Below, piece after piece: positions 58,659 through 63,034 of a stretch of 64,000 bases of DNA. The notes beneath the pieces were generated by a model. That model ran no database searches, was not told the origin of the DNA, and saw nothing but the letters and a program-made list of their open reading frames with translations. How positions within the stretch are numbered: the first letter of the stretch is position 1; the number at the start of each line of letters is the position of its first letter. The stretch covers positions 62,001-126,000 of the forward strand of contig NZ_JAIVLK010000003.1 of the NCBI RefSeq assembly GCF_020524585.1, written 5' to 3'. The position numbers and the translations under genes are program-made. Origin of the DNA: Celeribacter naphthalenivorans (GTDB lineage: Bacteria > Pseudomonadota > Alphaproteobacteria > Rhodobacterales > Rhodobacteraceae).

Positions 58659-59495
58659 TCAGCCGTCAAACCGCATCGGCAACATGAGATTGAAGACCGA
58701 GTCCGTCAATTCCGCAGGGGCCGCCGGAAGTCTGGCGCTGCGCACTGCCGCGATGGCCGCATTGTCCAACGCCGCATTGCCCGAGCTTTTCGAAACGCTG
58801 ACGCTTTGCACGGCCCCGCTATGAGCCACTTTGATCAACAAGGTCACGGTGCCGGAGCCGCCCCCGCGCGGTGCGCGTTTTCGGCGTTCAATGCGGGAGC
58901 GCACGACGGACTGCCATTTGCTCAGCGCCGATTGCCGCGCGGCTTTCGACAGACCTGCCGCCTGTGCGCTCTGCGCCTGCCCGGCCTGCGCTCCGCCACC
59001 ACTGCCCGCGGCACGGGTCGCGTTGCTCGTGCGCTCGCTGCCTGCGCGCGCCTGCTGGGTTGTCTCTGCGGGCTGGGCCTTGGGCGGCTCAGCCGGTTTC
59101 GGAGGTTCTGGCGGTTTCGGCGGCGGTGGCGTGGTCGGCACCTCAGGCTCGGCAAAGCTCTCTGTCGTCTGCTGTGGCTGCATCGGCAGCGGCAGTGCCT
59201 TTTGCGACGGGGCCAGGTCGATTTCCGGCAGGTCCAATTGGGGTTGCTCCGGCATCACCGGCGCCTCGGGACGCGGCATGTCGAGCTGTTCGACGGGCTG
59301 CTCGATAGGTTGTTCCCACCGCTCCACCATCGCCGCCAAAGCCACATCAGAGGCCTGAAGCGTCAGATGCGCCTCGCCACCCGCACCAGCCGCCTCGGCC
59401 CCTGTGGAATTGTCCGCAAGGCTGACGGCCGCCACGGCCAAATGCGCCCCCACGGCCAGCCCCACAAATACGGTTCCTGTGAGAAGTCGTTTCAT
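58659..59495 (-). CDS. tonB: TonB-family energy transducer
   Basis: Spans the periplasm and transmits proton-motive force from ExbB-ExbD to outer-membrane receptors. The 278-residue protein has an N-terminal transmembrane anchor (about 5-27) with a His at 18, like the functionally important His in the E. coli anchor. A long Pro/Glu/Lys/Ala-rich periplasmic linker follows (about 55-190: EPEVPTTPPPPKPPEPPKP as a region). The C-terminal domain has SVSKSSGNAALDNAAIAAVRSARLP and a beta-strand SVFNLMLPMRF. It is the last gene of exbB-exbD-exbD-tonB; its start overlaps the previous stop (TGATG). Confidence 0.92.
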   Translation of the reverse strand: MKRLLTGTVFVGLAVGAHLAVAAVSLADNSTGAEAAGAGGEAHLTLQASDVALAAMVERWEQPIEQPVEQLDMPRPEAPVMPEQPQLDLPEIDLAPSQKALPLPMQPQQTTESFAEPEVPTTPPPPKPPEPPKPAEPPKAQPAETTQQARAGSERTSNATRAAGSGGGAQAGQAQSAQAAGLSKAARQSALSKWQSVVRSRIERRKRAPRGGGSGTVTLLIKVAHSGAVQSVSVSKSSGNAALDNAAIAAVRSARLPAAPAELTDSVFNLMLPMRFDG

Positions 59496-59923
59496 CAGGC
59501 GCCTCCCCCTTGGCTGGTGACCAGTTCAACCTGCGAAAAGCCGAGCGCCGAGAGTTTCGGCAAAAGCGCCGCGACATCTTTGGCGGGCACCTCGCGGTCC
59601 GCATGAAGAGCAATGCTTGGCCCCGCGCTGCCGTCACAGCCGCCATCGGCACAGAGCTTCACGCGCTCGATTTCCAAGGCATGGAGCGCCTCTTCCGTGC
59701 CCTGCGCCTCTTGAAACGCCAATAGACCATCGCGCCCGAGGAACAGCGGCAAAGCGGCCTCGACCTCGGCTTCGACACCCGCGTCGGGCAGTTCGACCTC
59801 GATGGGCGCAGGTGGCGCGATCTGGGCGGTCATCAGGAAAAAGATCAGCAAAAGAAAGACCACGTTGATCATCGGAACAACGCTCTCGGCAGGCGCTTGG
59901 CGGGGCTTGTTGGAAAAATCCAT
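59495..59923 (-). CDS. exbD2: second ExbD-like protein, with Asn in place of the membrane Asp
   Basis: A 142-residue ExbD paralogue with one transmembrane helix (about 15-37). Where ExbD proteins have a conserved Asp (TPMIDVVF in the neighbour), this one has PMINVVF, i.e. Asn20 (codon AAC, read directly). The periplasmic domain also differs: it has a Cys-containing insertion KLCADGGCDG. The end SIALHADREVPAKDVAALL is normal for the family. The ATG at 59923 matches the MDF start of the first ExbD and has GGAG upstream; a GTG three codons earlier overlaps the first exbD. It may form a mixed dimer with the first ExbD. Confidence 0.88.
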   Translation of the reverse strand: MDFSNKPRQAPAESVVPMINVVFLLLIFFLMTAQIAPPAPIEVELPDAGVEAEVEAALPLFLGRDGLLAFQEAQGTEEALHALEIERVKLCADGGCDGSAGPSIALHADREVPAKDVAALLPKLSALGFSQVELVTSQGGGA

Positions 59924-59928
59924 ATTGC

Positions 59929-60306
59929 TCACTCCACCAGCACGAGGTTGCTGTAGCCCTCAGTGCCGAGCCATTCCATCACCTCGATCACCCGTTGCAG
60001 CGGCACCTCTTCGTCGGCGCGCAGGATGATCATGTCTTCGGGGCCGTCCATCAATCCGGGCAAAGCGGCGAGGATGTCTTCTTCGCTGCGTGCCGTGCCG
60101 TTGAGCTGTAGGGCCTCATCGTCCACGCGGATCAAACGCGCGGGGCCTGTGTAGCCGCTCGACGCGCCGCCGCCCAAACTTAGCGACAGTTGCGCGGGCG
60201 TGCCGAATTGCGAGGCCAGCATGAAAAAGACCAAAAGCAGGAACACGACGTCGATCATCGGCGTGAGCGACATCCGGTGTTTGCGCCGGGGTGCGCCGAA
60301 ATCCAT
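59929..60306 (-). CDS. exbD: ExbD biopolymer transport protein
   Basis: Stator subunit that, with ExbB, couples proton flow to TonB. The 125-residue protein is of normal length and has the canonical transmembrane segment LTPMIDVVFLLLVFF with Asp19, then the periplasmic domain with IRVDDEALQLNG and IILRADEEVPLQRVIEVMEWLGTEGYSNL. It follows exbB by 3 bases and is followed by a second ExbD paralogue. Confidence 0.94.
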   Translation of the reverse strand: MDFGAPRRKHRMSLTPMIDVVFLLLVFFMLASQFGTPAQLSLSLGGGASSGYTGPARLIRVDDEALQLNGTARSEEDILAALPGLMDGPEDMIILRADEEVPLQRVIEVMEWLGTEGYSNLVLVE

Positions 60307-60309
60307 GGT

Positions 60310-60990
60310 TCACTCCGCCGCTTGAGCGACGCTCAGGCGGGTGTCCTTCGGCGCACGGGAGCGCAGGAACACGCGGGTCGCCATGTCTTCCAATTCGTGA
60401 CGCAGGCGGTCGGCCACGGCCTCGAAACCGGTGAAGGCGATGGAGGCGGGGATGGCGACAGCCATACCGGCAGCGGTGGTCAAAAGTGCTTCCCAAATGC
60501 CGCCTGCGAGCATCGCCGGGTCAGCCTTCGCACCGGCTTCCTGCAGGGTTTGGAAGGCGGAGATCATGCCCAAAACGGTGCCCAACAGACCCAAAAGCGG
60601 GGCAATCGTGGCGATCAATTCAAGCGGACGCAAGCCAGTGCGCGTGCGCTCCAAGTCCTTCTTGGCGAGACGCGTGGTCTCAGCCTCTGCTGCGGCATCG
60701 TCAAAGGCGGCGTTTTCATGCGCTTCAAAGGCCTCGCGCAGGAACCGCGAGCGCAGGCCCTTGCGTCCGGCCAACACCTCGCGCGCGGAAGCGCTGTCGC
60801 CGTCCGCCCAAAGCGTCAAGGCGCGTTCGCTGACCGCCCGGCTGCGCCATGCGCCCAGATAGGCCAGGTCCCAGACCTTCCAGAGGATCAACGCAAGGGT
60901 GATCACCGACAGCGCCGCAATGGCCCAAATCGACGGGCCACCTTGGGCGAGAAAATCGAACAGAGTTGAGAAGAGAGCCGAATCATCCAT
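60310..60990 (-). CDS. exbB: ExbB/TolQ-family proton channel protein
   Basis: Pentameric inner-membrane stator subunit. The 226-residue protein has three membrane helices (about 18-40, 130-155 and 165-190) and the family region RTGLRPLELIATIAPLLGLLGTVLGMISAFQ, then GIWEALLTTAAGMAVAIPASIAF. The ATG at 60990 with GGTGA ahead is chosen; another in-frame ATG is 12 bases upstream. It is the first gene of the exbB-exbD-exbD-tonB operon, and a palindrome lies in its promoter region. Confidence 0.93.
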   Translation of the reverse strand: MDDSALFSTLFDFLAQGGPSIWAIAALSVITLALILWKVWDLAYLGAWRSRAVSERALTLWADGDSASAREVLAGRKGLRSRFLREAFEAHENAAFDDAAAEAETTRLAKKDLERTRTGLRPLELIATIAPLLGLLGTVLGMISAFQTLQEAGAKADPAMLAGGIWEALLTTAAGMAVAIPASIAFTGFEAVADRLRHELEDMATRVFLRSRAPKDTRLSVAQAAE

Positions 60991-61046
60991 GTCAGTCACC
61001 ATACAATGCGTGTAGCTGGCTGATCCATTCAGCTGGCGTTTGGCCC

Positions 61047-61075
61047 CGGATAAATTATCCTAGTCTTTTAGTCAA
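61047..61075 (-). promoter_or_regulatory. probable promoter of the exbB operon with an overlapping palindrome
   Basis: On the minus strand a TTGACT -35 (61075-61070) is 17 bases from a TATCCG -10 (61052-61047). A palindrome GGATAA-A-TTATCC (61048-61060) overlaps the -10. Because tonB operons are usually iron-repressed, this is a candidate iron-regulator site; which regulator binds is not known. Confidence 0.45.
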
Positions 61076-61087
61076 GTTATCTCCCCC

Positions 61088-63034
61088 TCATTCTCGACTG
61101 AGCGCCACGACCGGATCGAGCCGTGCCGCATTGCGCGCCGGAAGGAACCCAAAAGTGATGCCGATGAGGGTCGAAGACAGGAAGGCCACGACAATTGCAG
61201 TGGTCGAAAAACTGAGCCTTATGCTGGAGGCGAATTCCTCGATCAGATAGCCGCCCGTCAGCGCAGCGAGGATGCCCAAAATGCCGCCGACGAAACAGAC
61301 CATCACTGCCTCGATCAGGAACTGGCTGACGATGTCGGACCGCCGCGCCCCGATGGCGATGCGCACGCCGATTTCCTTGGTCCGCTCGGTGACGGAGACC
61401 AGCATGATGTTCATCACCCCGATGCCTCCGACGACCAGCGAAATCACCGCGATCATCGCCACCAGATAGGTCAGCGTCTCCGTGGTCGAGGTGATGGTTT
61501 CGCGGATCGTGTCGGTATTCGACAGAAAGAAATCCTTGGTCCCGTGGCGCGACATCAAGAGCGCGGAAATCTCCGCCTCGGCCAGCGTCATGTCGTAATC
61601 ATCCGCCACGCGCACGCCGATGCTGTTGAGATTGTTCTGACCGGAGACCCGCGCCATCGACGTGGTATAGGGCACCCAGACGTTGAGCGACGAAGGCCCG
61701 AATGTGGCGCCGGTCGATTGCACAATGCCGATGATCCGCACGGGCACATGGCCCAAAAGCAGCACCTCGCCCAAGGGATCGGAATTCGCGCCAAAGAAAG
61801 TCTCCTGCGTGTCAGCGTCGATCACCGCGACTTGGGCATAGCTGTCGACATCCTCCGTGGAGAACACGGAGCCAGAGACGGTTTCATAGGAATGCACCTG
61901 AAAATAATCGCCCGACACCCCATTGATCGACGCGGAAGCCTCGATGTTGCGATAGCGCACGGTGGCCGAGGAGGACACGGCAGGCGACACGCTGTCGGCC
62001 AGATCCAAAAGCGCCAGAGCCGCCGCATCCGACGGCACGAGTGTTTCGATCCTTCCCTGATCGCGGGAGCCAAAGCCCGACCCCGCCCGCACCGTGATCG
62101 TGTTGGTGCCCAAGGACGAGATGTTTTCCAGAACCTGCTCCTGCGAGCCATTGCCCAAAGCCACGACCAGCACCACGGAGGCGATGCCGATGATGATGCC
62201 GAGCATGGTCAGGAAAGACCGCGTGCGATGGGCCAGCATGGCCTTGAGCGAAATATTGAACGCCTCGACCAACCGCCGCAGACCGGCACCGAAACCGCCA
62301 TGATCCGCGCTCTGGCGTGACCATTGGGCGGTTGGCGCGGCGGTGTCCTCCTTGCGCGTGTCGGAAATGATCCGACCGTCGCTGATCTCGACAATCCGAT
62401 GCGCATGCGCCGCGACATTCGGGTCGTGGGTCACCATGACGATGGTGTGGCCTTTGGCGTTCAGCTCCAAAAGCAGATTGATCAGGTCTTCGCCGCTTTT
62501 GGTATCGAGCGCGCCGGTGGGTTCATCCGCGAGGATCACCTCGCCACCGTTCATCAAGGCGCGCGCAACCGAGACCCGCTGTTGCTGACCGCCCGACAAT
62601 TCGGAAGGCCGGTGATCGAGACGGGTGTCGAGGCCCAATTGTTCCAAGAGCGCTTTGGCGTGATCACGGCGCGCAGCGCGACTGGCGCCAGCGTAGATCG
62701 CGGGCACCTCGACATTGCCGACCGCGTCGAGATCGGAAAGCAATTGATAGCGCTGAAAGATGAACCCGAAATGCTCGCGCCGGAGCTGCGCCAACTCATC
62801 GGGGCTCAGATCGCTCACATCCTTACCGTTGAATGCATACTGCCCGGCACTGGCGCGATCGAGGCAGCCGAGGATGTTCATCAGCGTCGATTTACCGGAG
62901 CCGGAGGTGCCGATGATGGCGACCATTTCGCCGGGATAGATGTCGATGTCGACGTCACGCAAGACAGTGATGGTTTCGTCACCCGCCTGAAAGGATCGGC
63001 TGATGCCACGGGCGGAAATAAGCGGCTCTGTCAT
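61088..63034 (-). CDS. macB: MacB-family macrolide/efflux ABC transporter (ATPase fused to permease)
   Basis: A 648-residue mechanotransmission ABC protein. The N-terminal nucleotide-binding domain (1-225) has Walker A GTSGSGKSTL, FIFQRYQLLSDLDAVGNVEVP, signature SGGQQQRVSVARAL and Walker B VILADEP. The C-terminal half has a first transmembrane helix near 285, a large periplasmic domain, and three more helices (about 530-640, with GGIGVMNIMLVSVTERTKEIGVRIA and the end AARLDPVVALSRE). It works with MacA and an outer-membrane TolC. It starts 1 base after the macA stop. Confidence 0.94.
   Translation of the reverse strand: MTEPLISARGISRSFQAGDETITVLRDVDIDIYPGEMVAIIGTSGSGKSTLMNILGCLDRASAGQYAFNGKDVSDLSPDELAQLRREHFGFIFQRYQLLSDLDAVGNVEVPAIYAGASRAARRDHAKALLEQLGLDTRLDHRPSELSGGQQQRVSVARALMNGGEVILADEPTGALDTKSGEDLINLLLELNAKGHTIVMVTHDPNVAAHAHRIVEISDGRIISDTRKEDTAAPTAQWSRQSADHGGFGAGLRRLVEAFNISLKAMLAHRTRSFLTMLGIIIGIASVVLVVALGNGSQEQVLENISSLGTNTITVRAGSGFGSRDQGRIETLVPSDAAALALLDLADSVSPAVSSSATVRYRNIEASASINGVSGDYFQVHSYETVSGSVFSTEDVDSYAQVAVIDADTQETFFGANSDPLGEVLLLGHVPVRIIGIVQSTGATFGPSSLNVWVPYTTSMARVSGQNNLNSIGVRVADDYDMTLAEAEISALLMSRHGTKDFFLSNTDTIRETITSTTETLTYLVAMIAVISLVVGGIGVMNIMLVSVTERTKEIGVRIAIGARRSDIVSQFLIEAVMVCFVGGILGILAALTGGYLIEEFASSIRLSFSTTAIVVAFLSSTLIGITFGFLPARNAARLDPVVALSRE

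Follow-up and report, generated by a model that had tools for sequence, protein, structure and literature searches.

Operon structure and gene identities

The window, a stretch of 64,000 nucleotides from Celeribacter naphthalenivorans, carries four genes arranged head to tail on the reverse strand, exbB-exbD1-exbD2-tonB (61002-58659), so that exbB, exbD and tonB lie together as in a Ton operon (Table 1). The genes are tightly spaced, with gaps of 3 bases between exbB and exbD1 and 5 bases between exbD1 and exbD2, and the stop codon of exbD2 and the start codon of tonB overlap by one base (TGATG). G-rich stretches resembling ribosome sites are found directly 5' of exbD1, exbD2 and tonB; GGAG stands directly 5' of the exbD2 ATG, within the 3' end of exbD1. 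exbD2 might instead start from a GTG at 59932, although the ATG is likelier.

Table 1. Genes of the Ton operon in the window
Gene	Position	Strand	Product	Profile match
exbB	60310..61002	(-)	pentamer-forming motor subunit	PF01618, 99.5 bits
exbD1	59929..60306	(-)	Asp-bearing ExbD (D19)	PF02472, 68.6 bits
exbD2	59495..59923	(-)	Asn-bearing ExbD (N20)	PF02472, 69.9 bits
tonB	58659..59495	(-)	TonB-type transducer	PF03544, 45.6 bits; TIGR01352, 55.6 bits (cut-off 27.1)

Both ExbD proteins exceed the curated Pfam cut-off for the ExbD/TolR family (PF02472, 25.4 bits), and both fall below the cut-off of 152.95 bits for the NCBIfam ExbD equivalog TIGR02803, ExbD1 with 42.0 bits and ExbD2 with 27.5 bits. 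The transducer scores as TonB, and the Agl-Glt AgmX/PglI domain (NF033768) is not among its listed NCBIfam matches. Residues T142, E171 and T176 of the window ExbB align with T148, E176 and T181 of Escherichia coli ExbB, which are described as essential or conserved in excerpts of PMC12905483 and PMC8599685. All three are conserved in 79-80 of 80 sequences, a set made up of the window and 79 of the 80 loci of a genome-contig scan that selected Asn-bearing copies.

The operon is flanked by genes for a MacB-type ABC transporter and an HlyD-type protein on one side and for a sugar transferase and an epimerase on the other, neighbours that indicate no substrate. A TTGACTAAAA...GATAAT-like stretch 5' of exbB (60990-61100), similar in three Celeribacter loci, is a possible promoter or operator; the motif GACTAA was found in 3 of 79 stretches upstream of exbB, all three of them from Celeribacter loci.

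Asp and Asn at the proton-carrying site

ExbD1 reads SLTPMIDVVFLLLVFF, with Asp19 encoded by GAC (60250-60252), and ExbD2 reads SVVPMINVVFLLLIFF, with Asn20 encoded by AAC (59864-59866). The membrane stretches around the two residues are nearly alike (PMIDVVFLLLVFF in ExbD1 vs PMINVVFLLLIFF in ExbD2), and in the alignment to the profile of Asn copies N20 falls without gaps on Asp25 of E. coli ExbD. The re-read codons and this alignment agree with the first-pass annotation of the sequence, which had assigned Asp19 to the first ExbD and Asn20 (AAC) to the second. Having Asn20 at this place, ExbD2 lacks the protonatable Asp of the membrane helix. According to the consulted part of PMC11658791, ExbD cannot do without that Asp, and in E. 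coli the D25N form has no activity; in the related stator protein MotB, the D22N exchange is treated as a mimic of the protonated state in an excerpt of the review PMC9389320.

The AlphaFold2 model of ExbD2 has a helix at residues 19-32 followed by an alpha/beta domain and is of moderate confidence (mean pLDDT 75, pTM 0.51). Its six best matches in the PDB are periplasmic domains of ExbD or TolR, with E below 0.001 for the first (8pek) alone. ExbD2 is thus predicted to possess the single membrane helix and the ExbD-type periplasmic domain of the family. Its closest named match, with 92% identity, is from Celeribacter.

Conservation of the Asn-bearing copy

A protein similarity search covered 61 genomes (the source genome and 60 relatives) and gave matches in 54, from which 30 loci were fetched. 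An Asp copy together with an Asn copy was present in 29 of the 30, the window's own locus among them; 28 could be read directly and one more (L030) once its short matched stretch was read, and the 30th (L031) holds a lone TolR-like gene. Asp in close orthologues of the second gene would have told against the first-pass annotation; they carry Asn in 29 of the 30 loci, the 30th having no second copy, and Asn recurs in distant systems. Within the family 37 genomes were searched, and at least one Asp/Asn pair was detected in 30, a count that includes the source genome and three loci from a later search; the remaining 7 were seen in match lists only.

A class-wide search with the Asn-copy profile covered 240 genomes and matched 106, TolR-like genes included. 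All of its best 30 loci have Asn in the copy that was matched, the profile being one that favours Asn copies. An Asp copy lies upstream as a separate frame in 28 of these, L136 is near a contig edge, and L130 holds the Asp and Asn copies in a single open frame (L130:1018-1899). A natural fusion was considered for L130 and dropped, since the end of its Asp copy is unlike the others, which points rather to a frameshift or a fault in the assembly; L130 is therefore left out of the evidence.

The codon usage at the focal site is AAC 90 and AAT 40, so that the residue, rather than the codon, is maintained. In an alignment of 16 rows, picked for diversity irrespective of the focal residue, N20 and ten other positions of the membrane segment are invariant. 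It is scarcely credible, then, that exbD2 has only lately mutated or is a duplicate that decays and does nothing: nothing speaks for this besides the lost essential residue, and against it stand the intact frame, the invariant positions, the synonymous codon change at the site and the presence of the Asn copy in many families and other classes. The earlier judgement that exbD2, with its intact frame and ribosome site, is no decayed copy was sound; the frame, the GGAG and the conservation all bear it out, and on the conservation we reject a decayed copy.

Asparagine can in principle deamidate, and a post-translational change of Asn20 to Asp would restore a motor with two Asps. Chemically possible as this is, it has no support in the sequences: in the printed copies Asn is followed by Val, Ile or Leu, and such a neighbour makes for slow deamidation. 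Selection could, moreover, just keep an Asp codon, as it has in the first copy, and we hold this route to be very improbable.

Pairing of the two copies is nearly constant. At first pass, 5 of 207 Asn-copy matches (not all distinct) had no Asp copy nearby; two of these were paired by another profile, one has both copies in one frame, one lies at a contig edge, and one, L090, is a real exception to the pairing at its locus. Here (L090:2905-3405, Pseudotabrizicola sediminis) a single ExbD starts like an Asp copy and continues like an Asn copy, possibly through recombination of near-identical stretches or an assembly merge. The same genome has another Asp/Asn pair elsewhere.

Frequency of pair types

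Two samples of genomes were chosen by the ExbD Pfam profile irrespective of the residue, and tandem pairs were picked by eye among the adjacent matches listed, a procedure that overlooks any pair of which one member scores under the listing limit. The class sample (50 genomes) yielded 18 tandem ExbD pairs, of which 12 are Asp/Asn (two from the source genome) and 6 Asp/Asp. The phylum sample (45 genomes) yielded 10, namely 3 Asp/Asn (again two from the source genome), 4 with the reverse order Asn/Asp and 3 Asp/Asp. Five pairs are common to both samples, the source genome's own two and those of G064, G062 and G048. The general profile did not pick up the Asn copy of L218, which was read through the profile of its own group, built with L218 included. 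The genome-contig scan and a DNA-pattern scan, both selecting for Asn, are excluded from these frequency estimates. In the latter, the Asn motif, written as a strict DNA pattern, was matched in 26 genomes among 398 of the phylum, and the reversed-pattern control in 2. Asp/Asn pairs account for 23 of the 29 loci found by the pattern, four of those outside the class; the other 6 have no ExbD match and were taken as chance.

The loci fetched gave 177 distinct pairs, with 157 Asp/Asn and 10 each of Asn/Asp and Asp/Asp, a total that is weighted to Asn, since the two scans selected Asn and two of the profiles were built from Asn copies, and that omits matches whose focal residue would not align. Asn/Asn pairs and third focal residues are absent from the 177. 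Asp/Asp tandem pairs do exist (10 of 177, and the published operon of Sphingobium SYK-6), so the asymmetry is not required by having ExbD genes in tandem.

The copies also differ in their periplasmic parts. Among the 157 distinct Asp/Asn pairs, the Asn copy has two periplasmic Cys in 46, one in 2 and none in 109, and the Asp copy has none in any of the 157. The first-pass annotation had presented a Cys-containing periplasmic insertion as a trait of the second copy; with two Cys in 46 of 157 pairs this is a minority condition and, as a defining feature of Asn copies, is ruled out. The Cys pair of the window's ExbD2 (59495-59923) perhaps forms an intramolecular disulphide.

Differences of this kind, with Cys confined to Asn copies, would suit a reading in which ExbD2 is a structural adaptor: its membrane helix would need a residue that is polar but uncharged, its place in the heterodimer would serve mainly to provide a second periplasmic domain for binding TonB or peptidoglycan, only one Asp would ever have mattered and proton use would be unaffected. 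An excerpt of PMC10907165, in which one TonB D-box strand binds two ExbD chains differently and in opposite senses, agrees with such a role. Were a single Asp all that counts, however, other small residues should turn up at the site, and only Asp and Asn occur in the 177 pairs, Asn-weighted as that set is; we rate this reading as rather improbable.

ExbD systems of the source genome and of plasmid relatives

The source genome has five ExbD-family matches, which are TolR and two Asp/Asn pairs. TolR scores above its cut-off and is adjoined by TolQ, TolB and Pal, and, Tol apart, the matches in this genome include no ExbD cluster with Asp alone. The second pair lies on another contig (C8; L036:2485-5332) in a cluster of ExbB, an Asp copy (PLADAMFQLLIFF), a divergent Asn copy (AIVNIVLLLIFFFL), which at 21.8 bits is below the Pfam cut-off, and a protein of 442 residues that matches neither Pfam nor NCBIfam. 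Both ExbD copies of this cluster are very divergent, and a Ser/Thr kinase adjoins it. One further genome from the genus has a close relative of the cluster (86%), likewise Asp/Asn. As to the ExbB family in the source genome, its fourth match is MotA and its fifth (C2:188170) is without an NCBIfam family. Since both non-Tol ExbB-ExbD clusters are Asp/Asn and the genome encodes 10 TonB-receptor plug domains, TonB-dependent uptake in this organism most likely runs on an Asp/Asn motor, judging from gene content.

Asn-copy matches were obtained in 23 plasmid records, and the neighbourhoods of three were read. In Phaeobacter inhibens P72 the operon comes after genes that encode a TonB-dependent receptor, an iron ABC transporter and an adenosylcobinamide amidohydrolase; the Leisingera S132 operon is separated by a few kb from IucA/IucC siderophore genes; and in Pacificitalea it is near hemP. 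All three operons are Asp/Asn and near iron-uptake genes. A receptor-specific role of the second ExbD, offered earlier as an alternative, finds no support in the neighbourhoods read.

Agl-Glt-like clusters and origins of the Asn copy

In clusters outside the class that resemble the Agl-Glt motors, the Asn copy precedes the Asp copy at all 10 loci, which come from 9 of 299 genomes of the phylum; 4 of the 10 served in building the search profile. These Asn-first loci bear the identifiers L216-L219, L233-L241 and L247, of which some repeat one place, leaving 10 distinct loci. Five weaker loci from the same search proved to be ordinary Asp genes. An exbB gene lies upstream of the Asn/Asp pair in the four loci checked (4/4). 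The AgmX/PglI C-terminal domain scores above cut-off in the partner genes of L217 and L218, the two tested, and by this domain they resemble the Agl-Glt-type clusters described in an excerpt of PMC3169522. The two kinds of system differ in order and partner: the Agl-Glt-like clusters place Asn first and have a GltG-like partner, whereas the window places Asp first and has TonB.

In the best trees, the Asn copies of the Ton-type and Agl-Glt-like kinds are separated. A tree of 107 rows, comprising 50 of the 177 pairs and 7 single genes with the focal column masked, has at its best 7 label changes, 2 of them forced by starred branches. A 48-row subset tree has 2 changes, 1 of them forced, and there a single Asn clade received an AU p of 0.2. 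On these trees, two origins of the Asn copy are favoured, a single origin not being rejected (AU p 0.2). The second copies of L212 and L221 have Asp and stand among or beside Asn copies in the tree at weakly supported forks; they may be reversions or old forms.

A proposed motor with one protonatable axle helix

We consider it probable, by a modest degree, that ExbD1(Asp) and ExbD2(Asn) form an obligate heterodimer in the ExbB pentamer, of which ExbD1 alone is protonated, with about five protons per turn. Each ExbB pentamer would hold one ExbD1 and one ExbD2. Proton uptake and release would be carried out by ExbD1 only, and ExbD2 would supply the required second axle helix, its Asn standing permanently in place of a protonated Asp. 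A turn of the motor would then cost about five protons rather than ten, and the periplasmic domains of the two copies would be free to specialise for the unequal ExbD faces offered to TonB.

The first-pass annotation had suggested that the stator dimer is asymmetric and protonatable on one side only. The near-constant pairing with an Asp copy, the adjoining exbB gene and the strong constraint all fit such a dimer; co-assembly within one pentamer is the part that we infer, as are the proton count, the rotation and the division of labour. The sole replacement found is Asn, a neutral look-alike of protonated Asp, and this fits a helix that is fixed in the neutral state better than it fits a lost constraint. 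As D25N suggests by analogy, a homodimer of Asn copies would be expected to have no activity; homodimers of ExbD1 are possible.

Current rotary models, in the consulted part of PMC12215075, have two Asps that alternate, with 36 degrees per proton, and excerpts of PMC9389320 and PMC12215075 count ten protons per turn. Given such alternation, and given that D25N is inactive in E. coli, a motor that is half Asn may be weak. In a Ton operon of Myxococcus, of which the focal residues were not read, single deletion of exbD1 or exbD2 leads to like developmental defects, and both mutants retain some PopC secretion, according to an excerpt of PMC6434023. No ExbD1/ExbD2 heterodimer entry was among the matches of our PDB search.

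The inactivity of ExbD(D25N) (PMC11658791, in the part consulted) also lends itself to a different reading, that ExbD1 homodimers drive the motor and that some of the pentamers take up ExbD2, inactive in itself, as a brake or regulator that reduces proton leak or determines how many motors are active; placed in a tightly spaced operon, exbD2 could compete for ExbB. A brake should nevertheless vanish in some lineages, and L090 is the one real exception to the pairing among the 207 non-distinct matches; the recurrence of the Asn copy in Agl-type motors, with the order reversed, counts against it as well. We regard a brake as unlikely, and prefer the heterodimer.

More broadly, the heterodimer may represent a half-gear branch of the 5:2 rotary motors, with an obligate Asp/Asn axle, five protons per turn, halved torque and fixed polarity. 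It would then be the ordinary Ton motor in a large part of one family (30 genomes of 37 searched) and would have evolved two or more times, in Ton-type motors and, with the gene order reversed, in gliding-type ones. We put this forward as a tentative proposal that we would sooner bet against than for.

The Asp/Asn ExbD pair is a new form of a known motor and is far more widespread than was stated in the first-pass annotation. No description of an Asn-bearing ExbD was found in the literature searched, from which subscription journals were mostly outside the scope. A lopsided pair that recurs in many bacteria offers a natural test of proton use in motors expected to have two identical proton-carrying parts. 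In a natural motor that seemingly has a single Asp, the assumption of two alternating Asps becomes directly testable by swapping two codons, and the Asp/Asn system makes the two axle chains distinguishable, which a homodimer does not. The annotation 'ExbD' alone is, moreover, no proof of a proton-carrying subunit.

Comparison with known systems

The operon of the window shares with the ExbB5-ExbD2 complex and TonB of E. coli (PDB 6tyi, 9ddp) the same ExbB pore residues, the ExbD profile and fold, and the TonB partner. In the E. coli motor a single ExbD forms a homodimer, which has two Asp25, whereas the window encodes two ExbDs, one of them with Asn. The operon tonB1-exbB1-exbD1-exbD2 of Sphingobium SYK-6 resembles that of the window in combining tonB, exbB and two exbD genes; its ExbD1 and ExbD2, unlike those of the window, both keep Asp, as stated in an excerpt of PMC8599685. 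For paired vWA proteins with a TolR/ExbD-like helix, the consulted part of PMC12204202 proposes a heterologous pair per TolQ-like pentamer, and both members are said there to retain Asp, unlike the pair in the window. The AglR-AglQ-AglS motor of Myxococcus xanthus is, like the window, built from one ExbB-like and two ExbD-like genes, and AglQ and AglS both have Asp according to an excerpt of the review PMC9389320.
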